Below are positions 9,639 through 57,899 of a stretch of 64,000 nucleotides of DNA, piece by piece (the first letter of the stretch is position 1; each line of letters begins with the position of its first letter). Source of the DNA: Acetomicrobium hydrogeniformans (lineage in GTDB: Bacteria; Synergistota; Synergistia; Synergistales; JAFGMB01); the NCBI GenBank assembly GCA_016841745.1, contig JAENYO010000001.1, positions 308,799-372,798 of the forward strand, given 5' to 3'. Under the pieces are notes generated by a model. The model did not search any database. It was not told the DNA's origin and saw only the letters and a program-made list of their open reading frames with translations. Both the position numbers and the translations under genes were made by a program.

Positions 9639-11021
9639 TTAGAGTTCAATCGATTTCCGGTTCAGCATATGGAAGAGATCTTCAGCTTCTCTGCGATGTT
9701 CCGCATATCCTTTTCTACCCATAAATCCATAGGTATAACGCTTCCCCTGCTCCACCCCCGGCTGATCAAATGGGTCGATCTCGAGAAGGCGCCCTGTCAG
9801 AGCGACTACGTATTCAAAGAAGAATATCATTCCACCAAGAGTTCTGGGTGAAAGTTCTTCCACTTCAATCCATAAAACAGGTTTACCGGATCTGTATATG
9901 GCTGCCGCAGTAGCCATAGCCTCATAGGAAAGCATCTGTCCCATTTCTTTTTCATAAAGATATGACAGTTCTTTCAGACTGGGCTGGTTCACCCCGGGTA
10001 TGGAGATCGGATTGTCAGTTCTCTTTACTTCTATAATAGTGAAGAGTTTATCATCCGGACCTTCTGTGTAAAGCTGAACCTGGGAGTGCTGATCAATACT
10101 TCCCAGAGCCCTTACAGGAGTAAAGCCCTGTCCTTGTTTACCCAGGCTTTCTGCACATAACTGAGCATACCATTCGACAAAATCTTCAAGTCTGTCTGAA
10201 TAGGGCATGAGGACATCAATATTTCTTCCTTTTCGATAATGAAGGTAATGAAGGGCAGACAGTATCCATGCAGGATTATCCAAAATCACTTTTCGTGAAT
10301 TCAGCTTTTCATCAACCTCTCCTGCCCCTTCAAGAAGATTTTCAATATCAATTCCCATGGCAACCGCCGAAACCAGGCCGACAGCAGAAAGAACAGAATA
10401 ACGCCCACCTACACCTGATGGTATGGTAAGACTTCTACATCCAGTATCTTTCGCAAAGGCACGGAGACTACCTCGGGATTCATCGGTGATAACGAGGACA
10501 TGATCCGGAGCCATAGATGCTCCCACTGCCAGTTCCAACTGATGAAAGAAATACAGGAAGTTTGCCATTGTCTCAGCTGTAGAACCTGACTTACTTACCA
10601 CAATAAGAGCCGTTCTGGAGATATCGACAACGTCAAGAATGGATTTACTCCCATGGGGATCGACATTATCTGCAACATAAAAGGCCGGCCCTTTTCTTTT
10701 TTGCAGGGGAATTTCATTGTAATATGGATGAACAAGAGCATTTCTGAGCATAAGATTACCAAGAGCTGATCCGCCGATTCCTATCTGAACAACATTTTCA
10801 AAGTTACCAAGCCAGTTACCATACTCAAATACATGCTCAGTTTGCTGGTAAGGAAGTTTAAGCCAGCCAAATCCATCATTTCCTTCATCTATTCCTTGTC
10901 TTAGCCATTTATCAGCTTCCTCAAGCCTGTTTTGAAGTTTCTCCAATTCTACAGGATCAACAGCAGGCCCCTTAAATACAGCCCCCGTAGAACCTCCATA
11001 AACCAATTTTAAAAAATCCAT
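9639..11021 (-). CDS. pgi: Glucose-6-phosphate isomerase
   Basis: Interconverts glucose 6-phosphate and fructose 6-phosphate. The 460-aa length fits the shorter bacterial form. Recognisable segments are the glycine-rich IGIGGSALGN, the phosphate-binding VVSKSGSTAET, the active-site region GVGGRYSVLS and the late FDQPGVEQGK signature. The ATG at 11021 is preceded by AAGGGGGGG. It stands alone between two terminators and points to glycolysis or gluconeogenesis in an organism otherwise rich in amino-acid catabolism. Confidence 0.96.
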   Translation of the reverse strand: MDFLKLVYGGSTGAVFKGPAVDPVELEKLQNRLEEADKWLRQGIDEGNDGFGWLKLPYQQTEHVFEYGNWLGNFENVVQIGIGGSALGNLMLRNALVHPYYNEIPLQKRKGPAFYVADNVDPHGSKSILDVVDISRTALIVVSKSGSTAETMANFLYFFHQLELAVGASMAPDHVLVITDESRGSLRAFAKDTGCRSLTIPSGVGGRYSVLSAVGLVSAVAMGIDIENLLEGAGEVDEKLNSRKVILDNPAWILSALHYLHYRKGRNIDVLMPYSDRLEDFVEWYAQLCAESLGKQGQGFTPVRALGSIDQHSQVQLYTEGPDDKLFTIIEVKRTDNPISIPGVNQPSLKELSYLYEKEMGQMLSYEAMATAAAIYRSGKPVLWIEVEELSPRTLGGMIFFFEYVVALTGRLLEIDPFDQPGVEQGKRYTYGFMGRKGYAEHRREAEDLFHMLNRKSIEL

Positions 11022-11178: not shown

Positions 11179-11415
11179 TTATTCTGTTTTTGCAAGCAGT
11201 TCATCTATCCGGGCAGTATCATAACCAACAACAAACTCTTCCCCTATCTGAGTTACCGGAACACCCATCTGCTTTGTTTTACGGACCATTTCCATTGCGG
11301 CTTCCCTGTTAGCACTTACGTCTATATATTCAAACTGTATTTCTTTTTTTACAAGGTAATCCTTTACCTTTGTACACCATGGTCAAGTAGGAGTTGAAAA
11401 AACTCTGACATTCAT
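11179..11415 (-). CDS. Glutaredoxin-like selenoprotein (UxxC), read through in-frame UGA
   Basis: Seventy-eight residues beginning MNVRVFSTPT-U-PWCTK. Codon 11 is TGA (11383-11385), exactly where glutaredoxin/NrdH proteins have the first Cys of CPxC, giving U-P-W-C. The rest is a standard glutaredoxin: beta strand EYIDVSA, MGVPVTQIGEEFVVGYD with the cis-Pro TVP-like segment, and a C-terminal helix. SD GGAGGG lies 7 nt from the ATG. A 7-bp hairpin (11353-11359 with 11364-11370) starts 12 nt after the UGA and may act as the SECIS element. It probably serves as a thiol/selenol reductase. Conventional gene callers would miss or truncate it. Confidence 0.88.
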
Positions 11416-11650: not shown

Positions 11651-12139
11651 ATGACGTCTTCGCCTGCTAAGGGCATCGAAAACATGTCTAAACGCCTTGA
11701 CCCGATTATTGAGAAATACAGGGGTAAAAAGGGCGTAACAATTCCCCTGCTGGCCGATGTTCAGAAAGAACTTGGCTATGTTGCAGAGGAAGCTGTGGGT
11801 TATCTTGCAGAAAAAGCTGATATTCCTGCAGCAGAACTGTTTGGAGTGGCTACCTTTTATGCTATGTTCCGGATGCAACCAGAGGGTAAATATGTGGTCA
11901 GGGTCTGCAGAGGAACTGCATGCCATGTTCAGGGTTCGGCCCTGATAGGCGATCAGATACAGAGGCATTTCAAAATCAAGGATGGAGAAACAACTTCTGA
12001 CGGCATATTCACTTTACAGTACGTAGCCTGTCTTGGGTGCTGCAGTCTGGCTCCTGTATTGATGGTGGGAGATGAAGTTTACGGAAGGCTCACTCCCGAC
12101 AAGGCTGTTAGTATACTTGAATCCTATCGGGATAAGTAA
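11651..12139 (+). CDS. NuoE-like [2Fe-2S] thioredoxin-fold subunit
   Basis: A 162-aa electron-transfer subunit of the NuoE/HndA/HydC family. It has the four-cysteine [2Fe-2S] pattern: CRGTACH (VRVCRGTACHVQG) and CLGCC (VACLGCCSLAP), after an N-terminal helical region that includes GVATFYAMF. First gene of a three-gene operon with a NuoF-like and a large GltD/NuoG-like protein, spaced 19 nt from the next start. In such complexes it relays electrons between the flavin subunit and the partner. Length and motifs are normal. Confidence 0.92.
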   Translation: MTSSPAKGIENMSKRLDPIIEKYRGKKGVTIPLLADVQKELGYVAEEAVGYLAEKADIPAAELFGVATFYAMFRMQPEGKYVVRVCRGTACHVQGSALIGDQIQRHFKIKDGETTSDGIFTLQYVACLGCCSLAPVLMVGDEVYGRLTPDKAVSILESYRDK

Positions 12140-12158
12140 TTATTTGGAGGTGTCCGTA

Positions 12159-13928
12159 TTGCCAAAGACTCTGGTAAAGGTGGGTATGGCAAGCTGCGGC
12201 GTTGCAGCCGGAGCCGAACCTGTCTACAAAAAACTCACCGAAATGTTAAAAGATCGAGACGATGTGGAAGTCAAGAAAGTTGGCTGTATAGGTTTCTGTT
12301 ATCTTGAGCCGCTTGTTGAAATAGAAAAAGGGAGTTCCAGGATAACCTATGGGAAGGTCGACGAGGCCATAGCTGAAGAGATTGTAGAAACACACATTGG
12401 TCACGGTGAGACCATTAAAAAATATGTGGTCCTGAATAATTCTGATGAAGCCCCTGAAAATCCAAGACTGGAAAATCAGGTTCGTATCGTTTTGAGGAAC
12501 AGCGGCCTCATCGATCCAGAAAATATCGATGAATATATTGAAAGAGAAGGTTACAAGGGTCTGGAAAAAGCCCTCAAGGAAATGAGCCCCATGGACGTTA
12601 TCAAGGAGGTTCTGGATAGCGGTTTACGGGGAAGAGGAGGAGCAGGATTTCCTACAGGCCTGAAGTGGAAATTTGCTCATATGGCAAAATCAGACATGAA
12701 ATATTTTGTATGTAATGCTGACGAAGGTGACCCGGGAGCCTTTATGGACCGTTCAGTTCTGGAAGGAGACCCCCACAGCATAATAGAGGGCATGGCCATC
12801 GGAGGTTATGCTATCGGTGCAAGTGAAGGAATAATCTACTGCAGAGCTGAGTACCCCCTTGCTATCAAACATCTTAACACGGCCCTGGAACAGGCCAGGG
12901 AAAAGGAACTCCTTGGTGATAATATAATGGGCACTGATTTCTGTTTTGATATCCACATTAAAGAAGGCGCAGGAGCCTTCGTATGCGGAGAAGAGACAGC
13001 TATGATAGCGTCAATTGAGGGTAAGAGGGGAATGCCACGCCCCAGACCGCCCTTCCCTGCCAATAAGGGAGTTTTCGGTAAACCCACAAACATCAATAAC
13101 GTGGAAACTCTGGCAAATATCCCCTGGATCATAACCAACGGCGCAAGTGCCTTTAACCGATATGGTATAGGCAGAAGCAGGGGAACAAAGGTGTTCGCCC
13201 TTGCCGGGAAAGTCAATAAGGGGGGCCTGGCAGAAGTTCCTATGGGCATGCCTCTGCGAGATGTTATTTTTGAGCTTGCCGGTGGCATCCCCAATAACAA
13301 AAAATTCAAAGCTGTCCAGCTTGGAGGACCATCTGGGGGATGTCTCCCCGAAGCACTTCTGGATACTCCTGTTGACTACGAATCCATTAATGCCACTGGA
13401 GCCATAATGGGCTCAGGTGGAATGGTAATTATGGATGAAACCACCTGTATAGTGGATGTTGCCAAATTCTTCCTTTCATTTGTTCAGAAAGAATCCTGCG
13501 GTAAATGTCCCTTCTGCAGGATCGGAACAAAGAGGATGCTTGAAATTCTGGAAAGGATATCCAGAGGTGAAGGGAAAATGGAAGATCTTGATCTTCTGGA
13601 AGAACTTGCCTACCAGATAAAGGATGGCTCCCTCTGCGGCCTTGGCCAGACAGCTCCCAATCCTGTTCTTACAACTCTAAAGTATTTCCGGGAAGAGTAT
13701 GAAACTCACATCCAAGATAAAAAATGTCCTGCTAAAGTATGTACTTCTCTCATAAAATACAGTATTGATCCTGAGAAATGCATCGGCTGCACAAAATGCG
13801 CCAGGAACTGCCCTGTCAATGCAATTTCCGGGGAAATTAAAAAGGCCCATGTAATTGACGACAGTATCTGTGTTCGCTGCGGGAAATGTATTGAAGTCTG
13901 CCCGGTTAACGCCGTTAGCGTGGAATAA
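12159..13928 (+). CDS. NuoF-like flavoprotein with extra FeS domains (HydB/HndC/NfnB type)
   Basis: A 589-aa NADH-binding subunit. In order: an N-terminal thioredoxin-like [2Fe-2S] domain (MASCGVAAGAEP, VGCIGFCYLEP), the NuoF core with FMN/NADH segments ([26 protein letters not shown]), the 4Fe-4S motif ESCGKCPFCRIGT, and two C-terminal ferredoxin motifs (CIGCTKCARNCP, CVRCGKCIEVCP). This architecture is that of the flavin subunit of electron-bifurcating hydrogenases and transhydrogenases. A TTG start at 12159 with GGAGG 8 nt upstream excludes 29 residues that would otherwise overlap the preceding gene. CPFC replaces the usual CTPC, but the cysteines are kept. Confidence 0.92.
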   Translation: MPKTLVKVGMASCGVAAGAEPVYKKLTEMLKDRDDVEVKKVGCIGFCYLEPLVEIEKGSSRITYGKVDEAIAEEIVETHIGHGETIKKYVVLNNSDEAPENPRLENQVRIVLRNSGLIDPENIDEYIEREGYKGLEKALKEMSPMDVIKEVLDSGLRGRGGAGFPTGLKWKFAHMAKSDMKYFVCNADEGDPGAFMDRSVLEGDPHSIIEGMAIGGYAIGASEGIIYCRAEYPLAIKHLNTALEQAREKELLGDNIMGTDFCFDIHIKEGAGAFVCGEETAMIASIEGKRGMPRPRPPFPANKGVFGKPTNINNVETLANIPWIITNGASAFNRYGIGRSRGTKVFALAGKVNKGGLAEVPMGMPLRDVIFELAGGIPNNKKFKAVQLGGPSGGCLPEALLDTPVDYESINATGAIMGSGGMVIMDETTCIVDVAKFFLSFVQKESCGKCPFCRIGTKRMLEILERISRGEGKMEDLDLLEELAYQIKDGSLCGLGQTAPNPVLTTLKYFREEYETHIQDKKCPAKVCTSLIKYSIDPEKCIGCTKCARNCPVNAISGEIKKAHVIDDSICVRCGKCIEVCPVNAVSVE

Positions 13929-13946
13929 GGGAGGATATCTGACGTT

Positions 13947-16900
13947 ATGGAAAGAACAGTTAAAGTAATCCTGAATGGGAAAGAAGTATATGGCTTCCCG
14001 GAGCAGAAAATACTGGATCTCTGTACCGAATGCGGAATAGAGATACCCACCCTGTGTTATGATCCTCACCTTTCAGTTCACGGAGGGTGTTCAGTATGTC
14101 TCGTAGAAGTAAAGGGAGCAAAGAGCCTCGTGAGGGCCTGTTCGGCTGCTATTTCTAACGGAATGGAAATCAACACAAGGTCATCCAGAGCTGTAAATGC
14201 TCGCAAGCTTGCACTGGAACTCCTCCTTTCCGACCATGTGGGGGACTGCAGGCCTCCATGTACCTTGACCTGCCCTGCAAATGGAAATGTGCAGGCATAT
14301 ATTAATCTCGCCGCACAGGGAAAATACAAAGAATCTCTGGACATACTCCATGAACATGTAACTCTTCCAGCCTGTATAGGAAGGGTATGCCCCGCTCCCT
14401 GTCAGGAAAAATGCCGAAGAAACTTCGTGGACGAAGAGCCTGTATCCATAAGGGAGATAAAAAGATTCGTCGGAGATGTCGCCCTTGAAAAAGGTTTTCT
14501 GGGGACCATGCCTTCCATAAAGGAAAATGGCAAGTCTGTTGCTGTCGTTGGTGGAGGCCCCGCTGGAGTTTCAGCTGCATATTATCTGAGACTAAAAGGA
14601 TATCAGGTTACTCTTATTGACAAGGAACCTCTGCTTGGGGGAATGATGCGCTATGGTATTCCCGATTACAGACTTCCACAGAATGTTCTTCAGAGTGAAA
14701 TAGACTGGCTGTTAGGACATGGTGTTACCGTAAGGACGAACACCTGTCTTGGCAAGGATGTGACTCTGGATGAACTCAGGAACGATAATGATGCAGTTCT
14801 TCTAGCAATGGGTTGCTGGTCTTCCTCACCCATGAGAGCTGAAGGGGAAGATCTCCCTGGAGTTCTCGGGGGCATTGACTTCCTTTATACAGTTAACAGC
14901 GGAAATCCTGCACTTCTTGGTAAGAAAGTAGCTGTTATAGGCGGAGGAAATACTGCAATGGATGCTTGCAGATGTGCCAAAAGACTCGGGGCTGAAGAAG
15001 TTTCTGTAATTTATCGAAGGACAAGAGCCGAAATGCCTGCTGAGGATATCGAGATTGAAGAAGCAATGGAAGAAGGCATCAATTTCACCTTCCTTGCTTC
15101 TCCAACTAAAGTTGAAGGAAAGGGCAAAGTCGAAAGGATCATCTGTGAGAAGATGGAACTTGGTGAACCAGACGCTTCTGGCAGAAGAAGACCCATAGCA
15201 ACAGGAGAAACATTTGCAATGGATGTTGATAACGTTATAGCAGCCATTGGGCAGAAAACTGACTTTGCAGGTCTTCCAGGATCTATACATGACGGCAGGA
15301 AAATGATCGTCAATGAGGATTACGCTACTCCCCTTCCCGGTGTCTTTGTTTGCGGAGACCAGCAGACAGGTCCGAAAATAGCCATTGAAGCTATAGGAAA
15401 TGGCCATTGGGCAGTTGATTCAATCGATCATTATCTTACTCATGGTTATGCTAAAAAACCTTTCTACTTTGATGTTACAAGAGATGATCTTGGACCTGAA
15501 GATTTTACTGACAGGGAAAAACAACCCCGGGAACAGCCAGCTCATGTCCAGGCAGAAAAACGTATGTCAAAACCTTTTGAAGAATATAACGCAGGTCTTA
15601 CTGAAGAACAGGTTCTCAGAGATGCATCAAGATGCCTTGAATGCGGGTGTGAAGATGTCTTCGAATGTAAACTCAGGAAATATGCCATCGATTACGAGGT
15701 GGATCCATCAAGGGTCGCCGGCGAACATATTTCCAAAGAAGAAAATGCAAATGAGTACTACATCCGAAATATGGATAAATGTATCCTTTGCGGGAGATGC
15801 GTCAGAGCCTGTGACGAGATAGCCGGATTCCATGCAATTGATTTCGCAAAAAGAGGATTTGATTCAGTAATGGCTCCCCAGTTCTTTGTTCCCATTGAGG
15901 ATTCGGATTGTACTTTCTGCGGACTCTGCACACAAGTATGTCCAGTAGGTGCATTGGTCGAAAAACGAGCACCCAGATGGCCACATACTGAAAAACCAGA
16001 GATCGTCAAAACAACATGCAATAAATGCCCTGTAGGTTGTGAACTGGACCTTAATCTTGACAACTCAAGGGAAAGGATCGTTCGTATAACTACTGATCTT
16101 GACAATCCGGCTTCCCCAACCTATGGTAACTGCTGCGTTAAAGGTAGATATTCCTTTGGAGATGTTTCAAAGGACCGGATCATTACACCTCTGCAGAACG
16201 GAAATGAGGTTGCGTGGAATGACGTTATTGCTGAAATAGGACAGATAACTGAAAATGCAGAGAAGGATGACACAGCATTCCTCACCAGCGCATCTCTTAC
16301 CAACGAGGAAATGAAGGCACTTAAGATCCTGACAGGAGAAGTTCTACAGGATATTCCCGTGACCGTAAAAGACTTTGATATCTTCAGACCAGGCCTTGAC
16401 ATCCTGAATAGTAAATGGGGAATTAATGGTTCTACGGCAGGTTATGACCAGATCCTCTCTTCGAACTGCATTCTCCTTATCGATTCAGATACCGATGAAG
16501 AACAGCCCGTACTTTCGTCATGGATAAGACGTGCAATGAGGAAGAACTCCACCCAGGTCATTTATCTTGGAAACGATCCCGGAATTTTAGGGAAAGGTGA
16601 CTCTATGCTCCTGTCTCCAAGGCAAGGGACAGAAGAAGACCTTCTGAAGGGTATCCTGGCCGAAGTAACCAGGAAGACAGAAGGTAATGTTCAGGACGAA
16701 CTGAAGCCTTATACTCTTGAACATACGGAGTCTCTGACCGGTATTTCTTCAACTGAAATAGCCAGGTGTGTAAACCTGCTTCTCGAAAGCAAAGGCCTCG
16801 TAACCATGTGGGGGAGTAAAGTTGCAGCAAGCAGCTCCAGAACGGAAAAGGTCCTCAAGCTGATGGAAAAGCTTGATAAGAAATCTTTCTTCCTCCTTTA

Positions 16901-17297
16901 CAGGGAAGCCAATATGCAGGGAGCTATTAATATAGATCTCTCTTCTCTTTCCATGATGAAACTTCTGGAAGGAGTCAAGAATGGGCAGATCAAAAACCTC
17001 TTCGCTGTAGATGTTGACCCTGTATCTGTTGGTTTTACAAAAGAAGATCTTCAGAAACTCGATAACCTTGTAATACTGAACAGTAATCGTTTCGACGGCT
17101 GCGAAGAAGCTGCATTCGTACTGCCTCTAACATCCTGGGCCGAAAAGAACGGAACCTTTACGAATCTCTGCGGTCGCCATGTAGATATAATGGCAGGTCC
17201 TCTTCCAAAAGGAGAAGCCAGAAATCTTGCGTGGATAATTTCCAATACTGCCAGAACTGCAGGAAGAGAATTACACGCAAATCCCCTCAGTTACTAA
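13947..17297 (+). CDS. NuoG-GltD-ferredoxin-MopB fusion oxidoreductase, 1116 aa
   Basis: Domains in order: [2Fe-2S] with Cys37/48/51/65; His97-Cys101/105/109 motif; GltD-type N-terminal cluster (ACIGRVCPAPCQEKC, about 142-156); FAD motif VVGGGPAG (201-208); NAD(P) motif VIGGGNTAMDA (330-340) with IYRRTRAEMPA (355-365), which in GltD homologues favours NADPH; two ferredoxin clusters (Cys612-622, Cys655-665); then a molybdopterin-oxidoreductase-like part starting CNKCPVGC (691-698) and ending NuoG-like (WAEKNGTFTN). No Cys, Sec or Ser ligand of a catalytic molybdenum site was recognised there. It is likely the NAD(P)H-oxidising partner in an NfnABC-like bifurcating complex; a formate dehydrogenase-derived role is the alternative. 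Confidence 0.88.
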   Translation: MERTVKVILNGKEVYGFPEQKILDLCTECGIEIPTLCYDPHLSVHGGCSVCLVEVKGAKSLVRACSAAISNGMEINTRSSRAVNARKLALELLLSDHVGDCRPPCTLTCPANGNVQAYINLAAQGKYKESLDILHEHVTLPACIGRVCPAPCQEKCRRNFVDEEPVSIREIKRFVGDVALEKGFLGTMPSIKENGKSVAVVGGGPAGVSAAYYLRLKGYQVTLIDKEPLLGGMMRYGIPDYRLPQNVLQSEIDWLLGHGVTVRTNTCLGKDVTLDELRNDNDAVLLAMGCWSSSPMRAEGEDLPGVLGGIDFLYTVNSGNPALLGKKVAVIGGGNTAMDACRCAKRLGAEEVSVIYRRTRAEMPAEDIEIEEAMEEGINFTFLASPTKVEGKGKVERIICEKMELGEPDASGRRRPIATGETFAMDVDNVIAAIGQKTDFAGLPGSIHDGRKMIVNEDYATPLPGVFVCGDQQTGPKIAIEAIGNGHWAVDSIDHYLTHGYAKKPFYFDVTRDDLGPEDFTDREKQPREQPAHVQAEKRMSKPFEEYNAGLTEEQVLRDASRCLECGCEDVFECKLRKYAIDYEVDPSRVAGEHISKEENANEYYIRNMDKCILCGRCVRACDEIAGFHAIDFAKRGFDSVMAPQFFVPIEDSDCTFCGLCTQVCPVGALVEKRAPRWPHTEKPEIVKTTCNKCPVGCELDLNLDNSRERIVRITTDLDNPASPTYGNCCVKGRYSFGDVSKDRIITPLQNGNEVAWNDVIAEIGQITENAEKDDTAFLTSASLTNEEMKALKILTGEVLQDIPVTVKDFDIFRPGLDILNSKWGINGSTAGYDQILSSNCILLIDSDTDEEQPVLSSWIRRAMRKNSTQVIYLGNDPGILGKGDSMLLSPRQGTEEDLLKGILAEVTRKTEGNVQDELKPYTLEHTESLTGISSTEIARCVNLLLESKGLVTMWGSKVAASSSRTEKVLKLMEKLDKKSFFLLYREANMQGAINIDLSSLSMMKLLEGVKNGQIKNLFAVDVDPVSVGFTKEDLQKLDNLVILNSNRFDGCEEAAFVLPLTSWAEKNGTFTNLCGRHVDIMAGPLPKGEARNLAWIISNTARTAGRELHANPLSY

Positions 17298-35086: not shown

Positions 35087-35423
35087 CTTTATACCCCCTG
35101 ACAAATACCTCTGGATTTAGAAAGGGAACAGGAAATAATAATAGACATATTCCCTGCATGGTAAATCTATTATATCCATTTCCAGGATATCATCACACAA
35201 TCTAAATATTTCATGAGTCACGGATAAGCGGGTATTGATCTTTATCCCGATGCTATCAGGAACAGAATAGATTGGTGAAATATAATTAATTTATTATAAT
35301 ATTGCGAATTCGTTTATCCCTTTAATTGTTACCAGTTCTATCTAAAATAGCAGTATAATTAAATGCGGTATTTTAAATCACTTTTCATATTTGCCAAAAA
35401 GCCGGCTAAAGGGGGAAGCTTCC
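35087..35423. other. Divergent intergenic region between cofactor genes and aldehyde oxidoreductase operon
   Basis: Non-coding, A+T-rich stretch of 337 bp with no convincing gene. A TATAAT at 35354-35359 may be the -10 box for the plus-strand operon; no good -35 hexamer was found at 16-18 nt. An inverted repeat ATATCC-N7-GGATAT (35172-35190) lies on the minus-strand gene side and could be an operator. No riboswitch class was recognised. Confidence 0.4.
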
Positions 35424-35933
35424 GTGGCAGATAATCTTGTTGCGTGTTTAGAAGAAGATGTTTCCACCGACACATCCGAAATTGAGGATATTCTCTCCAG
35501 TTATCCAAAGGAACCCCGGTTCCTCCTTCCCGCTCTCCTCGACATCCAGAAAAGATTTCGCTACCTTCCAGTCTCAGCAATGAAAAGAGTTGCCGAATAT
35601 CTTTGCGTACTCGAAACAAGAGTTTTCAGTGTAGCCACATTCTACAAGGCCTTAAGCCTTACTCCGAAAGGAGAAAGAACTATCAGGGTCTGTGCCGGGA
35701 CGGCATGTCATTTGAGAGGCAGTTCTTCGATCCTGAGACAGATCGAAAAGGAGTTGGGTATTCTCTCTGGAGATACGACAGAAGACGGAATGTTCACCCT
35801 TGAAACTGTGAACTGCCTTGGAGCATGTGCTCTTGCACCTGTAATGATGATAGATGACCGGGTTTATGGGAAAATGACACCTCATAAAGTTTGTGAGGTC
35901 CTCCGGAAGGACTCATGCAATGACTCTGAATGA
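35424..35933 (+). CDS. NuoE-like [2Fe-2S] subunit of the aldehyde oxidoreductase complex
   Basis: A 169-aa NuoE/HndA-type subunit. The cysteine motif is [10 protein letters not shown] ([10 protein letters not shown]) plus CLGACALAP ([13 protein letters not shown]), with the helical [11 protein letters not shown] segment before it. A GTG start at 35424 follows GGGGGA at 7 nt; an earlier TTG at 35391 lacks an SD. It is clearly a paralogue of the NuoE-like protein at 11651. First gene of a five-gene cluster ending in a tungsten aldehyde oxidoreductase. Confidence 0.9.
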
Positions 35934-37794
35934 AAAAGATTATCTGAACCTGGACAGAAAAGATATCATACAACTTCCGATGGTAGAAGAAGTTACGATA
36001 AGGGTCTGCTGCGGCACTGGCTGCCTTGCAAACGGAAGTGAGCTGGTCCTCAGGGAATTTCACAGATTGATCCAGAAAGCTGAAGATCCTCTGAAAGTTA
36101 CAGTTATGGCAGACTCAACAGGATGTCATGGGTTTTGCGAACATGGGCCCATTGTGACCATCCATCCCTATAATATCTTTTATCAGAAAGTTCACAAGAA
36201 GGATGTTGAGGAGATCTTTGAAAAAACGATCAGAGAAAGAAAACTGGTCCGGCGACTCCTTTACACCGACCCGAATACAAAAGAGATATCTATGACATCA
36301 GAGGAAATCCCATTTTATTCAAAACAGACCAGGAAGGTCCTCAGCCTTTCAGGAAAGGTGGATCCTGAGTCAATTGACAGCTATATATCCTTTGGCGGAT
36401 ATTCTGCTCTGGCTAAAGCTTTGTTCATGGATAAAAAGGAAGTCATCGAAGAAGTTGCAAGATCGGGCTTGAGGGGAAGAGGCGGAGGGGGATTCCCTAC
36501 CGGGGAAAAGTGGAGATCCTGTTCTGAAGCCGAAGATACTGAAAGGTATGTTATAGCGAACGGGGATGAAGGAGACCCAGGTGCTTTTATGGACAGAAGC
36601 CTCATGGAAGGGGATCCTCACAGCATAATAGAGGGAATGATCATTGGCGGGTATGCCATTGGAGCCAGCAGAGGATTTATCTACGTAAGGGCTGAATATC
36701 CACTGGCAGTTAAACATCTGGACCATGCCATCAAAGAGGCTCAGGCGAGGGGTTTTCTGGGTAAGAACATCCTTGGAGGAAACTTCTCTTTCGAACTTGA
36801 AACATACAGGGGTGGCGGAGCTTTCGTATGCGGAGAATCTACTGCCTTAATGGCTTCCATTGAAGGAAAGATCGGTGAACCAAGGGTCAAATATATCCGA
36901 TCGACCCGAAAGGGACTCTGGGGAAAACCGACAGTGCTCAATAATGTTGAAACATGGGCCAATATACCCCATATTATCCTCCAGGGTGCCACTCCTTTCC
37001 GAATGTCAGGTACTGAACAGAGTCCTGGGACAAAGATCTTTTCCCTTGTTGGAAAAATCAAGAATAGCGGCCTTGTTGAGGTTCCCATGGGAATCCCCTT
37101 ACGGGAAATCATTTACGGAATTGGCGGGGGAACTCTGAGTAATAGACCATTTAAAGCAGTCCAGACAGGGGGACCATCAGGAGGATGCATTCCCGGGACA
37201 ATGCTTGATCTTAAGGTGGACTTCGATAGCCTGACTGAAGTTGGTTCAATGATGGGTTCCGGTGGACTGATCGTCATGGATGACAGGACTTGTATGGTAG
37301 ATATAGCCCGTTACTTTGTCGACTTTCTCGTTGAAGAATCATGTGGAAAATGCACTCCCTGTCGGGAGGGACTGATGGAAATGCAAAATATTCTCCATCG
37401 TCTCACAACCTCCCGGGCAGCAAAGGGGGACGTTAAGAAACTGCGGGAAATTTCAGAATGCCTTCCCCATACAGCTCTCTGCGGTCTTGGAAAAACTGCT
37501 GCCAATCCAGTTATCTCCACACTCAGATATTTCCCGGAAGAATACATGGAACATGAAGAAGATAATTTCTGCCGGGCCGGCGTTTGTACAGGCATGTTCT
37601 CACTCACCATCAATCCTTCCAGATGTGTTGGATGCCATGCCTGCTTCAGGGAATGCCCTGAAGCAGCGATAAAGGGAAATCCCGGCCAACCCCATGAGAT
37701 CTCCAATAATGAATGCATCTTGTGTGGGACATGTCTTAAGACCTGCAAATTTGATGCGATCGTTATCGGAAGGAGGCGACAGGATGATGATTGA
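35920..37794 (+). CDS. NuoF-like NADH-binding flavoprotein subunit
   Basis: A 624-aa paralogue of the NuoF-like gene at 12159. It has an N-terminal [2Fe-2S] domain ([25 protein letters not shown]), then the FMN/NADH core ([30 protein letters not shown]), the 4Fe-4S site [12 protein letters not shown], and two ferredoxin motifs ([24 protein letters not shown]). The ATG at 35920 overlaps the preceding stop by 14 nt. In this cluster it probably carries electrons between NADH and the aldehyde oxidoreductase. Confidence 0.92.
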
Positions 37795-38533
37795 GATCGT
37801 TATCGACGGGCAGAAATGTTATGTTGAAAAGGGGATAACTATCCTTGAAGCAGCAAAAACTATGGGTATCAGGATCCCGACAAAGTGTTACCATCCTGGT
37901 CTCTCCCCTTCGGGAAGCTGTAGATTATGTTCCGTTGAAATAAAAGAAATGGGCAGGCACAGGATCGTAATGTCCTGTATGTTCCCCATAGAAAATCCTG
38001 GTCTTGAAGTGATAACTTTCAATGAAAGAATAAAAAAACTCAGAAGTTTCATTGTGGAAATGCTTCTTCTCAGAAGCCCTGATGATCCTTCACTGAAGGC
38101 TCTTGCCAGAGAATATGGAATTGAAGATCAGCCCTCTCATAATTCTTACACAAGGGAGAATAAATGTATTCTTTGCGGATTATGTATCAGTGCCTGTGAA
38201 GCCTCAGGAAGCGCTGCCCTGAGCTTCATTAACAGAGGCCATGAAAGAGAGGTTGCAACACCATTCGACGAGCCTTCACTCACCTGCACAGGCTGTGGTG
38301 CATGTGCAGAAATCTGTCCTGTAAATTTCATAGAAATGGAAGATAAAGATGGGGTCAGGTTCATCTGGGGAAAGATCTTTGCTCTGGCAAAATGCAGAAT
38401 CTGTGGAAAATATTTCGCCACTTTTGAACAGTTAGCTGCAGCGACTGGAAATGACGAACCGGAACTGCTCTGCATGAGATGCAAACAACTGGAAGAAGCC
38501 AGAATCATAGGCCATGGGATTACCACAGGCTGA
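37784..38533 (+). CDS. NuoG-N/HydA-like [2Fe-2S] and 4Fe-4S electron-transfer subunit
   Basis: A 249-aa subunit. N-terminal [2Fe-2S] ferredoxin domain ([15 protein letters not shown], then MSCMFP), then two 4Fe-4S motifs ([24 protein letters not shown]) and a C-terminal region with CRICGKYF and CMRCKQ. It lacks the His-Cys cluster typical of NuoG. The start is at the first of two ATGs (37784), 7 nt after GGAGG, overlapping the previous gene by 11 nt. It would link the NuoF-like subunit to the ferredoxin-like subunit downstream. Confidence 0.9.
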
Positions 38534-45361: not shown

Positions 45362-46339
45362 TTAAAGATCAAGGATCCTCCAAAGTTCTTCCTCAGAAGT
45401 CAGATCACATGTCTCTTCGCTTTTCGGGATCATACTGCCAATGGCAGAGGCTTCTATCCCTGCATTCTTAAGGCTTTCAAGAACAAGGGAACTCTTTTCC
45501 CTGTCTACCACCATAACAAGGACTCCCGAAGATATGAGATGATAAACGTCGAAACCAAGATGTTTTTGTACTTTTCTCGTGAGAGGATGAACTGGAATGG
45601 CATCATGATCAAGATTTATACCCAGTCCGCTGAGCCTTGCTATCTCGGCCAGTCCGCCCTTGAGACCTCCCTCTGTGGGATCATGCATAAACTTTACATT
45701 ATCACGAACCAGGATAGACTCAGGGTAAATAGAAAGATCGGAAACCCATGAAAGGATCTCCTGCAACTCTTCAGGAGTAACTACAGGGGAGATAAGATCA
45801 GGTCTGTCATTTGCCAGAATGGACATCCCTTCCAGACCTGCATGTTTTGTCATTATCAGCACATCTCCGGGAACGAGTGATTCCGCTTGATAAAGGAAAG
45901 AGGTACTACCAACTGCAGTACCCACTATTACAGGTTTATCGTAACGATCTGTAAACTCCGTGTGGCCTCCAATTATCGCTATTTCGAGATCTCGACAAAC
46001 AGCATCGATCTCAGACATTATTTTTTCTGCAAATGGAAGACCCATGGAAACCGGTATGATAAGGGTTACCATGAAATATGCCGGATCCCCGCCCTTGCAG
46101 GCTATGTCATTGACATTTACATGAACCAGCAGTCTTCCCGCTCCCTCGGAAGCACCTACGATAGGATCAGATGCCACAACAGTATATTTATCCCCCGGAA
46201 GATCAATTATACAGGCATCCTCCCCGACACCGGGACCGACCAGGACTTCGGGCCTTTTAAAACCAGAGAAACGCAGGATCCTCTCTTGAAGAATCCGGGG
46301 TGGTAATTTGCCTACCGGTACAGGAATTGTTTCATTCAT
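45362..46339 (-). CDS. HypE-like AIR synthase family protein
   Basis: A 325-aa PurM/HypE-type ATP-binding protein (VGPGVGEDACIID, DPIVGASEGAGR, HVNVNDIACKGGDP, IIGGHTEF, MHDPTEGGLKGGLAE). The C-terminus lacks the PRIC cysteine of true HypE, which is present in the gene at 62041, so it is a paralogue of unknown substrate. Several ATGs occur near the SD GAGGAG; the one at 46339 is at usable spacing (12 nt). Overlaps queH by 8 nt. Confidence 0.85.
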   Translation of the reverse strand: MNETIPVPVGKLPPRILQERILRFSGFKRPEVLVGPGVGEDACIIDLPGDKYTVVASDPIVGASEGAGRLLVHVNVNDIACKGGDPAYFMVTLIIPVSMGLPFAEKIMSEIDAVCRDLEIAIIGGHTEFTDRYDKPVIVGTAVGSTSFLYQAESLVPGDVLIMTKHAGLEGMSILANDRPDLISPVVTPEELQEILSWVSDLSIYPESILVRDNVKFMHDPTEGGLKGGLAEIARLSGLGINLDHDAIPVHPLTRKVQKHLGFDVYHLISSGVLVMVVDREKSSLVLESLKNAGIEASAIGSMIPKSEETCDLTSEEELWRILDL

Positions 46340-46889
46340 CTGATAGTTCATCTCCTCTAAAACTGTAAATACATCCACAGTATGTCTGGCGGTAAAGACC
46401 TATTTCTCTGCTAAGATGTACCGATCGCTGGAATCCACTATTTTTTCTCCATATTTTTTCAACCCATATCAATCCATAACGTGAAGCCACTTCTTTCCCG
46501 ATGCTATTTATAAGACCTGGATCTTTATGGGGACTTATGGTCAGAGTTGTACTCAGAAATTGACAGTTAAGTTTCAATGCAGCCTCTGCACTTGACTCCA
46601 GCTGAATTTTAAAACAAAGGAGGCATCGTTTGCCACGTTCCGGTTCCGAAGCATATTCTCGAGTAGAATTGATCCAGAGTTCAGGTTCATAATTATTTAT
46701 TATGAACTTTACATTCATTAACTCTGCAAGGCGAAGAGCTGCTTCTTTCCTTTTAAGAAATTCTTCGTATGGGTGTATGTTATTTCCATAAAAAAAACCG
46801 ATAACATTATTACGTTCTGACACAAGTTCAATTAAAGGGACAGTCCCATCAGGAGCACAGCAGACATGTAAAAGGATATTTTTCATCAA
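46332..46889 (-). CDS. queH: Epoxyqueuosine reductase QueH
   Basis: A 185-aa radical-free, FeS-dependent reductase that converts epoxyqueuosine to queuosine in tRNA, the QueG alternative. Cysteine motifs are CCAPDG near the N-terminus, KRCLLCFKIQLE in the middle and YCGC near the end. It overlaps the HypE-like gene, and its own first codon is an ATG at 46889. No other queuosine genes lie in the window. Confidence 0.93.
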   Translation of the reverse strand: MMKNILLHVCCAPDGTVPLIELVSERNNVIGFFYGNNIHPYEEFLKRKEAALRLAELMNVKFIINNYEPELWINSTREYASEPERGKRCLLCFKIQLESSAEAALKLNCQFLSTTLTISPHKDPGLINSIGKEVASRYGLIWVEKIWRKNSGFQRSVHLSREIGLYRQTYCGCIYSFRGDELSDE

Positions 46890-51950: not shown

Positions 51951-53102
51951 TTACATATAGTTGCTTTCCTTAAGGATCTGGACTCCCTTTTCCATGTGTT
52001 TGGATGGAATTTTTACAACCGGTCCCGTGCAACCCATGGCTGATTCTGCATAGATCCCGGCCTTCCAGAGTTCTCTCACTGCATTTTCCACATCCAGAAC
52101 ATCGATACCGTGGATTTCTTCATCAGTTGGTTCCTGGGGAGGAGCCGTTACCTCTTCCCGACATTCATCCGGCTTTGGCTGAAGGGATGATATGAGATCA
52201 TCCAGTCCCGCTTCTTTTGCTTTGCAAATTTCGTCCGCAACAACTCCGGGTAAATTGCCTGCAACAGCGGAAGCATTGAAAGAAATGGCATTTGCAATAA
52301 CAGGAGCACCAGATGCCCTCGATATGATAGAGATAACATGGGGCCATCCTTCACCGACAGAAGGACCGTATCCCCAACCCAGGGCCTCAAAGGACCCTCC
52401 AGTGTTAAAGGATGAAAAAAGTTTCATCAGCACATTGCCGGTGAGCGTATCGTTGACACATATATCAACGGCTCCTGAAAGAAGGTCGTTTCCTCTCAAA
52501 ACGGCCCCTCCGTCCTTACGTATGCTCTGACCAAATTTGATATCATAACCATTTTCTTTAAGCTGTCCAAGAGCCCTGTAGACGGGATGGGCACCTTCCA
52601 CGTTCAGAATACCGACGGTTGGATCCTTTTTCCCTATGGACCTGGCAACGGCTATTCCGTAAATAGCATTCCGCAACATGGCCTCTGTTCGCAATATCGC
52701 TGAAGTTCCGGTAGATGAGGCAATTATCATATCCTGCCCCTTTGCAGGAGTCAGAACCCGGCCTATTGTCGTTACCCCCATGGGGAATGGGTAATGAAGG
52801 GCAACAGCACCCATAATTACACCGTCATTAAGGGCCTGGTCCATGGCTGAAGCAATATCAGCATCACAGTCAGATGTTTCTATCCATTCAAGATCTTCAT
52901 ACCCCTCTATCCTGGGACCTATCATCACAACCCTGATATGGGAATACTGCTGCTGAGCGAGTCTGCCTCCCCTTGCCAGTTCCTCATCACCAAGTTCACT
53001 TCCGCCAGCCATAAGTCCCACCCGCACCTTGGGACCGCCAGTTTTTGCTGATTCTATAATATCGGCAAGAGCTTCACCGACCAACTTACGGATATCGGAC
53101 AT
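51951..53102 (-). CDS. grdD: Glycine/sarcosine/betaine reductase complex component C, alpha subunit
   Basis: A 383-aa GrdD, phosphate-acetyltransferase-like. With GrdC it accepts the carboxymethyl-selenoether from GrdA and releases acetyl phosphate. Recognisable segments: GSELGDEELARGGRLA, MGVTTIGRVLTPAKG, GEGWPHVISIISRASG. The ATG at 53102 follows GGCGGGG by 8 nt. Last gene of the operon. Acetyl phosphate links glycine reduction to ATP through acetate kinase, which is not in the window. Confidence 0.95.
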   Translation of the reverse strand: MSDIRKLVGEALADIIESAKTGGPKVRVGLMAGGSELGDEELARGGRLAQQQYSHIRVVMIGPRIEGYEDLEWIETSDCDADIASAMDQALNDGVIMGAVALHYPFPMGVTTIGRVLTPAKGQDMIIASSTGTSAILRTEAMLRNAIYGIAVARSIGKKDPTVGILNVEGAHPVYRALGQLKENGYDIKFGQSIRKDGGAVLRGNDLLSGAVDICVNDTLTGNVLMKLFSSFNTGGSFEALGWGYGPSVGEGWPHVISIISRASGAPVIANAISFNASAVAGNLPGVVADEICKAKEAGLDDLISSLQPKPDECREEVTAPPQEPTDEEIHGIDVLDVENAVRELWKAGIYAESAMGCTGPVVKIPSKHMEKGVQILKESNYM

Positions 53103-53120
53103 AAATACCACCCCGCCAGA

Positions 53121-54650
53121 TCACTTTAAAGACTCGCTAATTTCAGAAAGGACCTCAAGGATCATGTTCTTTATTTCATCCTTGCTTATTGCTCCCACTG
53201 CTTCGGTCCCACTACTTTTTTCAATGAAGAATGAAGCTCCATCTGAAAGATTTGTTAATCTTGCGAGGAAAAGGCTTCCTTTACCTATGATCATTACTCT
53301 TTTCATTTTTCCATCTCTAATGGCATCACAGGCATGCCCCACAAAGGGAACGCCGGAAGGAATATGTCCCTGTGTGTGGGCAAAACCGGTCAGACCCTTT
53401 TCCTTGACAAAAGCCATCATATCCTTTTTCTCTATCTGTTTCTTCATTACAGCTAGAGCAGCTATCATCTTGGCATTCGCAAGGGGAACATCTCCAGCAC
53501 CTGCAGGAAGGGTTATCTCCGGAGTGTGAAGCTCTGCAGCATACTTATTAACATCCTGAAAGGAAAGTCCGAGTTTCTGCAGGGGTTCCCATGTAAGAGC
53601 AGATGTAACAGCCTGGGGTGATGCGCCTGTTCCGACAGAGTGTTTGCCCAGGGCATCCAATCTCATTACCGGATACTCTCCATTATCAGGAACAAGCAGG
53701 ATGGCAAAGTTACCCAGACAGTCCTCAAGGGCTGGTAATCCTTTTTTCACGTGGTCGCGACCATTCATGTAAAGCTTGGGAATCGCACCACCGGCAACTA
53801 CGATACAGTTCTTCCTTGCACCTGATGCAACCTGGGAGGCTGCCGCTATCATGGCATTGACAGGGCCGGCACAAAAACCTCTGACATCGCATCCGCTGGC
53901 ATTTACACAGCCGGCTATTTCAGCGATAGCCTTGGCGAAATTACCACCAGCCCGCTGATTCATGTCTCCTGCGCCTTCCTCGGAACATTCGATAACAAAA
54001 TCGATCTCCTGAGGCGAAATAGCGCTATTCTTCAAAAGATGAAGTACAGAAAGAACTCCTCCCGCTTTAGACGCAATGTTTTCAAGCAGGACATATGGAA
54101 AGAGACACTCATCGACTTCATGTCCGCTACGGACACAGCCTACAACATTGCCGTCAATATAAAGAGGCATAGCCTTATGATCTTTTATTTCACTGTCTAT
54201 GTCTTCCTGATCATGACCAGTTTCAAGCCTTGCAAGGATAGTTTCACTGATGACAGGATCCTGCACCAGCTTTTCCTTTACCAGGGAAGCAAACCCCTTC
54301 TCAAGCCAGATGAGGTCGAACACGTCGCATATATCAATTAGTCCAAGGAATTCATCCTCGGGCATGATCTCACCGTATTTTCCATAACGCATGGCATCTG
54401 CCATACGGTTTTCATACCATGGCTGGGGCTGAGCTTCATATTCGTCCAGAGTTATGCCACCGATATAAGCCTGGTTAGGGGCATAACTTACTGCTTCCCC
54501 GTAGGCCTGCAGATGCTTGGGAAGCTCAGACAGGAACTCCGTCTCTCCCCTGGTCATTCTCTCAATATAAGGGGTATTCCCGTAATGAAGACCAAGCTCT
54601 GGTGTGTGATTTAGACAATATGCGTAACCCTTGATTCCGACACTGGACAT
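53121..54650 (-). CDS. grdC: Glycine/sarcosine/betaine reductase complex component C, beta subunit
   Basis: A 509-aa GrdC, related to beta-ketoacyl synthase III. Opening VGIKGYAYCLNHTPELGLHYG is characteristic, with later CSEEGAGDMNQRAGG and GFCAGPVNAMIAAAS. It forms an enzyme-bound acetyl thioester before phosphorolysis. SD GAGGAGG precedes the ATG. It follows grdB by 77 nt and precedes grdD by 18 nt. Confidence 0.96.
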   Translation of the reverse strand: MSSVGIKGYAYCLNHTPELGLHYGNTPYIERMTRGETEFLSELPKHLQAYGEAVSYAPNQAYIGGITLDEYEAQPQPWYENRMADAMRYGKYGEIMPEDEFLGLIDICDVFDLIWLEKGFASLVKEKLVQDPVISETILARLETGHDQEDIDSEIKDHKAMPLYIDGNVVGCVRSGHEVDECLFPYVLLENIASKAGGVLSVLHLLKNSAISPQEIDFVIECSEEGAGDMNQRAGGNFAKAIAEIAGCVNASGCDVRGFCAGPVNAMIAAASQVASGARKNCIVVAGGAIPKLYMNGRDHVKKGLPALEDCLGNFAILLVPDNGEYPVMRLDALGKHSVGTGASPQAVTSALTWEPLQKLGLSFQDVNKYAAELHTPEITLPAGAGDVPLANAKMIAALAVMKKQIEKKDMMAFVKEKGLTGFAHTQGHIPSGVPFVGHACDAIRDGKMKRVMIIGKGSLFLARLTNLSDGASFFIEKSSGTEAVGAISKDEIKNMILEVLSEISESLK

Positions 54651-54727
54651 ACTTCAAATTACCTCCTCGAAACAGCTATAAATTAAGCCCCGGCCCGGTA
54701 AGATTCGGGCCAGGGCAGAAACACTTT

Positions 54728-56035
54728 CTAGTCGTTGAAAACAGTCTGTTCAGTAACAGGTGTCTGAAGGGCCTTAAGAGCCTTCTCTACAAGGTGGCGG
54801 CGAATAGCCTTTTCTTCTTCGAATGGTTTCGTTGGATCCCCAAGGGGATGGGGAATGGCTATTGCAGGTACTATCCGGTTGGCTCCAACAGTAAGAGAAA
54901 TAGGAACGATAGTACATACATGGACAACAGGCAGTCCTGCTCTTTCAATTTCCTTAACCATCGTTGCACCGCAACGAGTACAGGTTCCTCAGGTGGAAGT
55001 CAGTATTACCGCATCGACTCCGTCTGCTTTAAGTTTATCAGCGATCGCGGCACCGAATTTTTTGGCGCTCGCCACTGCAGTTCCATTACCAACTGTAGTA
55101 TAGAACTTGTTATGGAGTTTCTTGAAAACTCCTTCTTTCTCCATTTCCCGCATAACATCAACAGGAAGAACGCGGTCCGGGTCATCATCGGCATAGGTCG
55201 CATCATAGCCACCATGAGCAGTACAGTGATCTGCTGAAGTGAGGTCATCATAACCCTCAATACTGTATTCACCATATTTGCTTGCACTTGATGCCTCAAT
55301 ATGATCGGGATTCCCCTTGGGGCAGATACCACCCGAAGTTACAATGGCAACAGTGGCATTTTTCATGTCTGTCACAGGGAGGTTGGGCTCAACCCTGTCA
55401 AAGACCGGCATGGGGTATTCTGTAACAAAAGGCTCACCCTTGAGTTTGCTGACGAACATATCAACGCATCTCTCAGCTGCAAGTTTTTCATAGAACTTGT
55501 TGATACGGATACCACGCTCGATGTAACCTTCCTCAGAAGGAAGACCTGTTTTTTCGCCTTTGAGCAGTTTGAGGAGCATTTTTGCCATGGCTGGAACGGC
55601 CTTACCCATTCCCCTGGCACTGTCGGGGGTTTCGATGATATACATGCTTTTTCTGTACATCTCCACCCCGGGATTCTCTGGATACATTCCGGAAACGACG
55701 GGTATACCAAGTTCTGTAGCTATTGCATCTCCCATTGCTCCACAGGCTGAACCGTACCTTCCGGCATTGAAGGCAGGGCCCAGAACAACTGCATCCGGGT
55801 TGTATTTTCTGATCATTTCAAGAACTTCTACAGCGGCTTTTTCTATATCAGTCGCAAAATAGGTATCACCGCATATAGCAGTTGCAACTATTTCAGCCTC
55901 ATCTCCGAGGGCATTATTCAGAGCCATTCCTGGCCCTACTACACCTTCTCTTATCTCGGGTTTATGATCGGCTTTTTCTTCTCCACCGATACCTGCAAAG
56001 AACTGATTTATATAATGAACGACACGGTAGGACAT
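54728..56035 (-). CDS. grdB: Glycine reductase component B, gamma subunit, selenocysteine-containing (one gene across UGA)
   Basis: A 435-aa GrdB read through TGA at 54989-54991 (codon 349). The residues around it are TST-U-GTCTRCGATM, the UxxCxxC motif of GrdB, and the protein continues for 86 residues with GANRIVPAIAIPHPLGDP. It binds glycine as a Schiff base with the GrdE pyruvoyl partner and transfers the carboxymethyl group to GrdA. The ATG at 56035 follows AGGAGGGG. A perfect 6-bp hairpin CGTTGC-GGT-GCAACG (54962-54976) begins 12 nt after the UGA and looks like the bacterial SECIS. Confidence 0.96.
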
Positions 56036-56059
56036 TGTTTCCCCTCCTTTCATTAAGGA

Positions 56060-56536
56060 TTAGAGAGAATACTTGCTAAACTCTTTCCTCATCGCTGCGA
56101 CCGCTGCACTCAAGGCTTCTGGATCGAGCACCATTTCCATCATGGAAATCTGCTCTTCCCAGGCTGCAGTATCCGCTTCTGCCCTTATCTCTTCCTCAAA
56201 AATATCATATACACAGAGTCCCAACTGGACTCCAGCCAATGGTCCTGCAAAGGTAGGATCCCCGTTTGCTACAGTTTCTGCGTAAATCTCAGCACCTTCT
56301 GCATCAGAAGATCCGAGTATTACTACAAGTTCTTCGGGGTTGTACTTTTCAGCAGCATCTTTGATCCTCTGCTGATTCTGCAGATCCATGGCTCCTGCTG
56401 CGGTTCAGACAAAGCATTCGGTAACGGAGAATATAACCTCGGCACCGCTATTCTGGAAAACCGATTCCATTGCAGGACCAGGGACCCCGTCACGTTCGCC
56501 AAGAAGAAGTAGTTTCTTTCCAGCCAACTTACCCAT
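56060..56536 (-). CDS. grdA: Glycine reductase component A, selenoprotein
   Basis: A 158-aa GrdA with Sec44 (TGA at 56405-56407) in the motif ECFV-U-TAAGAMDLQNQ, the expected CxxU with a following AGAMDL segment. It is the carrier that receives the carboxymethyl group from GrdB and is regenerated by thioredoxin. N-terminus reads MGKLAGKKLLLLGERDG. The ATG at 56536 has GGAGGTG upstream. Read without the UGA, only a 109-residue C-terminal fragment would be reported. Confidence 0.97.
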
Positions 56537-56580
56537 GCTTCGCACCTCCTTTATTAAAATGGGTTAGATTGTACAATCTG

Positions 56581-57867
56581 TTAAATGGTGTAAGCGCCAA
56601 GCTTTGTGAATCCAAGTTCGCATGTTGAACCAATGATAGCCTGAAGTTCAACTGTTATAGTTCCGTCAGAAGCCAGAGAACCGTCCCAGCCGCCAGCGAT
56701 GATATTAGCTTCATCGGGATATCCAAGTACTTTTTCCATAGGCGGAAGGGTAATAACCTCATTTGCATTACCGGCTGTTACACATGCATCACCTTCGGGA
56801 CAGGAGTCTGCAAGGGATTGACTGGCTCCATCCTGACCGGCATATTCATCCGTCAGGAGTGTAGTTTTCATACCGGCTCTTTCGGCTTTCCAGCAATTCA
56901 TAATGAGATCTGCGTCGGGATTCCCAAATCCCTCTTCGGAAATAAGAAGACCGTCAAGGCCCATCATGCTTGCCAGTTTGATGGAATATGAAGAACTCCT
57001 CTTCTTGTCTGCAAGAGTAACGTTTTCATTGGTAATGATACAGCCCACAAAATTAAAGTCCTTTCCATGATGTTCGTACATGGAATTGATTATAGGATTA
57101 TTAAGATGGACATAGGTATTGTTCTTGTCACAGGCGGAAACACAGTTACCTGAAACAATGGCCCCATCCATTACTTCGGTAGGACTGATAAGAGTTGGAA
57201 GACTCTTCTTGGCGTCTACACCGTATACCCATGTGTCATGAAGGAGTCCCTGGGACTGAAGCATATAAAGATAGGCTACCTTCGGAAGATCCGGATATGC
57301 GTGCATGGATTCCCTGAAAGAAAGGGTTTCATAGACATCCACCCTGTCAGGTTCACAATCTCTGCAACATTCAGCAAGGTATGCCGCAGTCTTCAGGCCG
57401 GCAAGTCTGCATGCAGCTTCGTGATCATGTTTTTCAAGATCCACTACGGGATCAAGAAGGAGAACAACGTTGTTCGTCTGTGAATAGGGACAGTAATCTG
57501 CTCCAGGCCCAGACATGTCGATAATGCCTTCCTGGAACCGTACGATCTTGCCTGTTGTTACGACCGCTGCTCCCTCAAGAACCAGGGTTTTACCTTCGCC
57601 AACGGTTTCAACATCGCTTACCATTCCCGGGAAGATACCTCCCTTGCCCTCGATCTTGCAACGGGGCTCAATGACATCCTTGACAGGAAGTATCCTGACA
57701 CTTTCTCCTGGCATGGCCAACTCAACATCAACCTTGGCAAGCCTTTCGTCTTCAGAAAGCATGGATACAAGTTCTTCCTTATTGACGAAAAGGACTCCGT
57801 CCCTGACTGCTGTCTTGTCACCCCATGCCAGCTTGCTAACTTTAACCTTATGGAGTTCAAGTTTCAA
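56581..57867 (-). CDS. grdE: Glycine reductase component B alpha/beta pro-subunit (pyruvoyl)
   Basis: A 428-aa pro-protein that is cleaved before Cys242 (SGN-CVSACDKN), leaving a pyruvoyl group. Opening MKLELHKVKV and GPGADYCPYSQTNN match GrdE. It provides the carbonyl group that binds glycine in component B with GrdB. Starts with a TTG at 57867, with AAAGGGGGG 8 nt upstream. Located between the thioredoxin and grdA genes. Confidence 0.96.
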   Translation of the reverse strand: MKLELHKVKVSKLAWGDKTAVRDGVLFVNKEELVSMLSEDERLAKVDVELAMPGESVRILPVKDVIEPRCKIEGKGGIFPGMVSDVETVGEGKTLVLEGAAVVTTGKIVRFQEGIIDMSGPGADYCPYSQTNNVVLLLDPVVDLEKHDHEAACRLAGLKTAAYLAECCRDCEPDRVDVYETLSFRESMHAYPDLPKVAYLYMLQSQGLLHDTWVYGVDAKKSLPTLISPTEVMDGAIVSGNCVSACDKNNTYVHLNNPIINSMYEHHGKDFNFVGCIITNENVTLADKKRSSSYSIKLASMMGLDGLLISEEGFGNPDADLIMNCWKAERAGMKTTLLTDEYAGQDGASQSLADSCPEGDACVTAGNANEVITLPPMEKVLGYPDEANIIAGGWDGSLASDGTITVELQAIIGSTCELGFTKLGAYTI

Positions 57868-57899
57868 AGAGATTCCCCCCTTTGGATTGAGTTCAACTA

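Follow-up and report, generated by a model that had tools for sequence, protein, structure and literature searches.

The locus considered here raises the question of whether a short frame interrupted by TGA, located in a stretch of 64,000 nucleotides of the Acetomicrobium hydrogeniformans genome (the window, understood as the whole stretch analysed), encodes a glutaredoxin with selenocysteine (Sec) at its active site, and which proteins such an enzyme might reduce. The source genome (G000) comprises 3.04 Mb and is 99.6% complete. The gene, its putative decoding signal and its neighbours are arranged as follows:

11415-11179, minus strand: putative Sec-glutaredoxin gene of 78 codons plus TAA, active site U11-P-W-C14
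11385-11383, minus strand: in-frame TGA at codon 11, read as Sec, aligned with the catalytic Cys of 94 homologues
11374-11349, minus strand: bacterial SECIS-like hairpin, UACAA-A-GGUAA-AGGA-UUACC-UUGUA, loop AGGA
11429-11422, minus strand: Shine-Dalgarno sequence AAGGAGGG, 6 nt 5' of the ATG, read from the sequence
11106-11089, minus strand: intrinsic terminator AGGCCCTTTTCAGGGCCT-TTTTTATC, hairpin and T-run 3' of the gene, found by pattern scan
11021-9639, minus strand: open reading frame of the downstream neighbour, pgi (glucose-6-phosphate isomerase)
11651-12139, plus strand: divergent open reading frame for an HndA/NuoE-like subunit, the first of a cluster of the electron-bifurcating hydrogenase type

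The initial annotation had given the coordinates of the frame, its Shine-Dalgarno sequence, the TGA at codon 11, the UPWC motif and the terminator correctly, but had left unstated that the gene lies on the minus strand; a plus-strand reading of 11179-11415 is on the wrong strand and gives a meaningless translation. With TGA read as U, the product is MNVRVFSTPTUPWCTKVKDYLVKKEIQFEYIDVSANREAAMEMVRKTKQMGVPVTQIGEEFVVGYDTARIDELLAKTE, and between ATG and TAA the frame holds only one TGA, that of codon 11. In the list of open reading frames of the window no ordinary frame of at least 60 amino acids covers 11179-11415, so that a standard gene caller would probably miss the gene, as had been claimed. 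When the complete window was searched for frames that read through TGA, contain U in a redox-like motif and hardly overlap long open reading frames, five candidates emerged, of which the glutaredoxin and GrdA are gene-like and the other three are without gene signs. GrdB is not among these candidates because the long frame to which it belongs masks it.

With Cys put in place of U, the product matches the Pfam glutaredoxin family PF00462 at 61.4 bits (gathering threshold 22.9, E=9.4e-17) and the NCBIfam model TIGR02196 (GlrX_YruB) at 91.7 bits, above the curated cut-off of 88.55, the first Cys of that family being replaced by Sec in the window protein. The earlier assignment to a small Grx/NrdH type is therefore correct in its glutaredoxin part and to be dropped in its NrdH part, since the NrdH-redoxin model TIGR02194 scores 38.6 bits, under its cut-off of 85.75; the score against the NCBIfam model for glutaredoxin 3 is likewise below cut-off. 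Invariant among 38 homologues are residue 11 (a Cys, replaced by Sec in the window protein), C14, V52 and P53, the last two forming the V-P of the cis-Pro loop. The AlphaFold model has a confident thioredoxin/glutaredoxin fold (mean pLDDT 89) with the predicted order E-H-E-H-E-E-H, in which the U-P-W-C motif opens the helix 12-23, and the top fold matches of this predicted structure in the PDB are E. coli Grx3 and Clostridium oremlandii cGrx1. The latter (7c10) is also the closest PDB relative by sequence (E=4.9e-12). The UXX-star families also resemble glutaredoxins and have Sec as their first active-site residue, but the window protein retains the second Cys (UxxC), hence dithiol-type chemistry, and scores 34.8, 34.9 and 49.8 bits against NF041114, NF041211 and NF041212, under their cut-offs of 72, 100 and 66. 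We are highly confident that the gene product is a dithiol-type glutaredoxin of the YruB subgroup with Sec as its nucleophilic residue.

Codon 11 was read in 101 homologous genes from the phylum Synergistota. Ninety-four of them have Cys (TGC or TGT), seven have TGA and none has anything else, and the alternation of TGA and Cys is confined to the catalytic position. The seven TGA genes are distributed over five genera in three families (G000; G106; G065, G049 and G094; G080; G082), and each has Cys forms from its own lineage close by. About five changes between Sec and Cys are needed on the gene tree, which is poorly resolved with its 80 columns. The source genome possesses a tRNA-Sec with the anticodon TCA (UCA as written for RNA), and its SelA, SelB and SelD score above cut-off, selD carrying an in-frame TGA of its own. 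All of selC, selA, selB and selD, named earlier as a check on Sec decoding, were found. A tRNA-Sec is present in 21 of the 22 genomes checked, the exception being the fragmented metagenome-assembled genome G106, itself a Sec-glutaredoxin genome.

The hairpin that follows the TGA in the window has its apical loop 19 nt past the UGA, ten base pairs, one bulge and a minimum free energy (MFE) of -7.5 kcal/mol. It satisfies the published constraints of the bSECIS model (loop of 3-9 nt with G in the first two positions, stem of 4-16 bp, distance of 16-37 nt from the UGA and MFE of at most -7.5; PMC13188914), with an MFE exactly at the limit. A SECIS-like hairpin occurs in all seven TGA genes, in three different sequences, with the loop starting 19-21 nt after the TGA. 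G000, G082 and G106, which represent three families, share the core AAGGTAAAGGATTACCTT without a difference; as KVKDYL can be encoded in 384 synonymous ways, of which just 2 produce the window hairpin, convergence of the three cores is possible, and common ancestry is not claimed. Hairpin energies range from -4.9 to -9.2 in the Sec genes compared to a mean of -0.85 in the Cys genes (Mann-Whitney p=4e-7, uncorrected for kinship).

Whether the amino acids explain the hairpin was asked by synonymous resampling, with 2000 recodings per gene under local codon usage. The resulting p-values are 0.001-0.023 in all seven Sec genes (0.009 in the window gene) and fall below 0.05 in only 3 of the 94 Cys genes, which is no more than chance; the sequences are related, so that the p-values of resampling and of the energy comparison are not independent. 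The protein sequence alone does not account for the hairpin. Compared with dinucleotide shuffles, the MFE of the 61-nt stretch as a whole is unremarkable (z=0.08), and the Rfam SECIS families have zero matches at the glutaredoxin hairpin.

The family match, the complete Sec machinery, the alternation of TGA and Cys and the SECIS hairpin at the correct position, the latter sustained by the synonymous-codon test, suggest in combination that the TGA at codon 11 almost certainly encodes selenocysteine, as the initial annotation had proposed; the insertion of Sec at this codon is what we infer from sequence. It is very improbable that the TGA instead stems from an error in sequencing or assembly, or from a nonsense mutation that struck a Cys glutaredoxin whose work is done by a paralogue. 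One base separates TGC and TGT from TGA, and the genome holds a close Cys paralogue, so that a loss would be tolerable, but the frame 3' of the TGA is intact and conserved, the hairpin is built by synonymous sites and the Sec machinery is complete. Moreover, TGA recurs at the exact codon in six other genomes from four further genera, which makes a read error very unlikely, and among the 101 genes neither TAA nor TAG is found there; both a read error and a plain stop in homologues had been named earlier as threats to the Sec reading. A genome-wide change of the code, with UGA as Trp, has a negligible probability. No point in its support was found, the Sec machinery is present, long conserved genes of the window such as GrdC stop at TGA at the expected length, and the alignments already refute it, as the site holds Cys and never Trp in the homologues.

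The surroundings of the gene provide insight into the history of the Sec residue. The open reading frame at 9639-11021, which we take to be pgi, has counterparts 3' of the glutaredoxin, on the same strand and within 600 nt, in 7/7 Sec and 59/94 Cys homologues. The HndA-like upstream neighbour is kept in several families, while an NfnA-like gene replaces it in others. As the pairing of glutaredoxin and pgi is syntenic across families, Sec and Cys substitute for one another at a single orthologous site. The closest relative of the window glutaredoxin (G001) is 79% identical and has Cys in the same neighbourhood, which makes an exchange of the residue in place at the orthologous locus most likely. 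Within the window, two separate HndA/HndC-like modules are found on the plus strand (11651-17297 and 35391-38533), of the bifurcating hydrogenase or formate dehydrogenase type.

The Cys paralogue in the source genome (L031:4054-4290) is 73-75% identical, is unlinked to pgi and lacks a SECIS-like hairpin; it could do the job of the Sec-glutaredoxin. Its flanks are presumably a TRAP-transporter operon and an EamA-type gene. A different pattern is observed in the genus g22, where G044 (L081) and G088 (L082) carry Cys (TGT) together with a hairpin of -8.9, against -9.2 in their Sec sisters. These are two of the three Cys genes with a resampling p<0.05, and they are sisters of the Sec clade of g22. 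Their hairpin is likely a fossil SECIS left after a reversion from Sec to Cys, a direction read from two genomes with identical glutaredoxins. That Cys and Sec were exchanged repeatedly and in both directions at the glutaredoxin-pgi locus, with g22 as a case of reversion with a fossil SECIS, is a scenario that we consider as probable as its opposite.

Selenocysteine-containing glutaredoxins have been known since 2006, when members with PF00462 and UxxC were catalogued in Geobacter, Alkaliphilus and Moorella (PMC1794560), and they are listed as experimentally verified (PMC13188914); the gene described here adds a member, not a new kind. It shares family and Sec position with those of Geobacter, Alkaliphilus and Moorella but belongs to Synergistota, a phylum that was described in 2016, as Synergistetes, as rich in selenoproteins (PMC5029168). 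The Cys forms around each Sec form come from its own phylum, which points to a local switch between Sec and Cys rather than to transfer from the Geobacter, Alkaliphilus and Moorella groups. A search of viral contigs gave no match to the glutaredoxin, and the phage records listed contain only distant relatives, mostly of the NrdH type. We likewise note an un-annotated Sec-glutaredoxin with UPHC in Acetoanaerobium noterae (L139:2501-2722), which has TGA at the equivalent codon and a hairpin after it, and which is 40% identical to the window glutaredoxin but has other neighbours. The record that holds it is 2.6 Mb long, filed as a plasmid, and has only 4 annotated features.

The closest known counterpart is cGrx1 of C. 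oremlandii (PDB 7c10, 7c12, 7c13), a verified Sec-glutaredoxin that reduces a Sec-containing methionine sulfoxide reductase (MsrA); tandem use of Sec in C. oremlandii is referred to, as a citation, in PMC4479559. Glutaredoxin reduces the C. oremlandii MsrA efficiently whereas thioredoxin does not, and with Sec that MsrA has 20 times the activity of its Cys form (PMC4479559). Both cGrx1 and the window protein are small single-domain glutaredoxins with U-P-x-C and about 40% identity, and the source genome, too, has an MsrA of the C. oremlandii type with Sec. They differ in phylum and in motif (UPHC in cGrx1, UPWC here); in addition, the source genome has the Cys paralogue, and here the partnership of glutaredoxin and MsrA is one that we infer.

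The only MsrA match in the source genome (L141, C10:44977-45384) is a selenoprotein with the motif ALGUFWG. Its catalytic part is without a resolving Cys, its C-terminal helical domain is kept, and its closest PDB chains are those of C. oremlandii MsrA, including 7c13, the complex of cGrx1 and cMsrA. TGA-bearing MsrA matches are present in about 25 other Synergistota genomes. The glutaredoxin occurs in 23 of the 26 genomes with Sec-MsrA compared to 78 of the 162 others (Fisher p=9e-5, uncorrected for phylogeny). A strict dependence between the Sec forms of the two proteins was considered and rejected, as only G000 and G106 among the seven Sec-glutaredoxin genomes have a Sec-MsrA. This proportion also implies that MsrA cannot be the only substrate. 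Many Sec-MsrA genomes carry a Cys glutaredoxin, i.e., the Sec status of the one protein is uncoupled from that of the other.

Further candidate partners are found among the AhpC/TSA-family matches of the source genome, 4 of 7 of which contain an in-frame TGA:

C7:431362 (L142): putative Sec-Bcp, TPGU at the peroxidatic position
C7:566560 (L143): putative Sec-containing AhpC-type peroxiredoxin (Prx), FVU at the peroxidatic position
C14:60038 (L147): putative Sec-Tpx, TPTU at the peroxidatic position
C8:386418 (L146): fourth TGA-bearing AhpC/TSA-family match

A canonical resolving Cys was not seen in the Sec-containing AhpC-type Prx or in Sec-Tpx. The sequences point to the Sec-glutaredoxin acting most likely as the selenol reductant of Sec-MsrA, and perhaps also of the Sec-peroxidases. 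In the cell, tRNA-Sec and SelB would decode the UGA with the aid of the hairpin 3' of the codon. The selenolate of Sec11 would attack the oxidised partner and Cys14 would resolve the mixed bond. Re-reduction would probably be achieved by a flavoenzyme of the thioredoxin-reductase type or by low-molecular thiols other than home-made glutathione. A thioredoxin reductase is encoded in the source genome (C13:80997), and a search for the GCS2-type glutamate-cysteine ligase, the one glutathione route covered, found none there.

The alternatives concern the partners. That Sec-MsrA is a main substrate we rate at about even. Only a little less probable is a real Sec-glutaredoxin whose main job is the general balance of protein disulfides and thiols, or a place in a chain from flavoprotein over glutaredoxin to peroxidase, and not Sec-MsrA. 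Such a role is in line with the membership in TIGR02196, with the presence of Sec-glutaredoxin in genomes that have an ordinary Cys-MsrA and with the conserved neighbours, which are pgi and NAD(P)H/ferredoxin-type enzymes and not MsrA. Also consistent with it is a related Cys glutaredoxin, 38% identical and plasmid-borne in Selenomonas ruminantium, which has an FAD oxidoreductase on one side and glutathione peroxidases on the other. Among the Synergistota loci that were read, however, neither a flavin reductase nor a peroxidase adjoins the glutaredoxin, and the Sec-MsrA of the source genome, lacking a resolving Cys, has a specific need for a glutaredoxin.

Service to glycine reductase, which the initial annotation had suggested alongside the peroxidases as a thiol-balance function, is very unlikely. 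Its two further selenoproteins in the window are real, and they belong to a complete glycine reductase locus (51951-58898, minus strand) with GrdX-like, thioredoxin, GrdE, GrdA, GrdB, GrdC and GrdD genes:

58782-58898, minus strand: glycine riboswitch of the glycine reductase operon
57900-58217, minus strand: thioredoxin gene of the operon
56545-56060, minus strand: GrdA, CFVU
56053-54728, minus strand: GrdB, UGTC
54951-54988, minus strand: match to Rfam SECIS_4, in GrdB

The selenoproteins thus share one 64-kb window, but some 43 kb lie between the glutaredoxin and the grd genes, which form an operon of their own with a riboswitch and a thioredoxin gene, and in relatives the glutaredoxin stays with pgi. 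GrdA and GrdB accordingly lack support as partners, and the Sec-MsrA, Sec-Prx, Sec-Bcp and Sec-Tpx of the genome are the better candidates. Elsewhere in the window, an AIR-synthase-like (SelD/HypE-like) protein is encoded at 45362-46378 (minus strand), with a weak TIGR00476 SelD match below cut-off, and is adjoined by a QueH-like gene at 46332-46889.

With the Sec-glutaredoxin, a phylum already rich in selenoproteins gains one that is easy to overlook, and the synonymous-codon test offers a simple, sequence-only support for a bacterial SECIS. As one orthologue occurs with Sec or with Cys in the same neighbourhood, at up to 79% identity in some cases, the locus represents a natural experiment on why cells bear the cost of selenium in an active site. 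For the organism itself, the Sec-glutaredoxin, Sec-MsrA, Sec-Prx, Sec-Bcp and Sec-Tpx likely constitute a selenium relay, which could be rebuilt in vitro.
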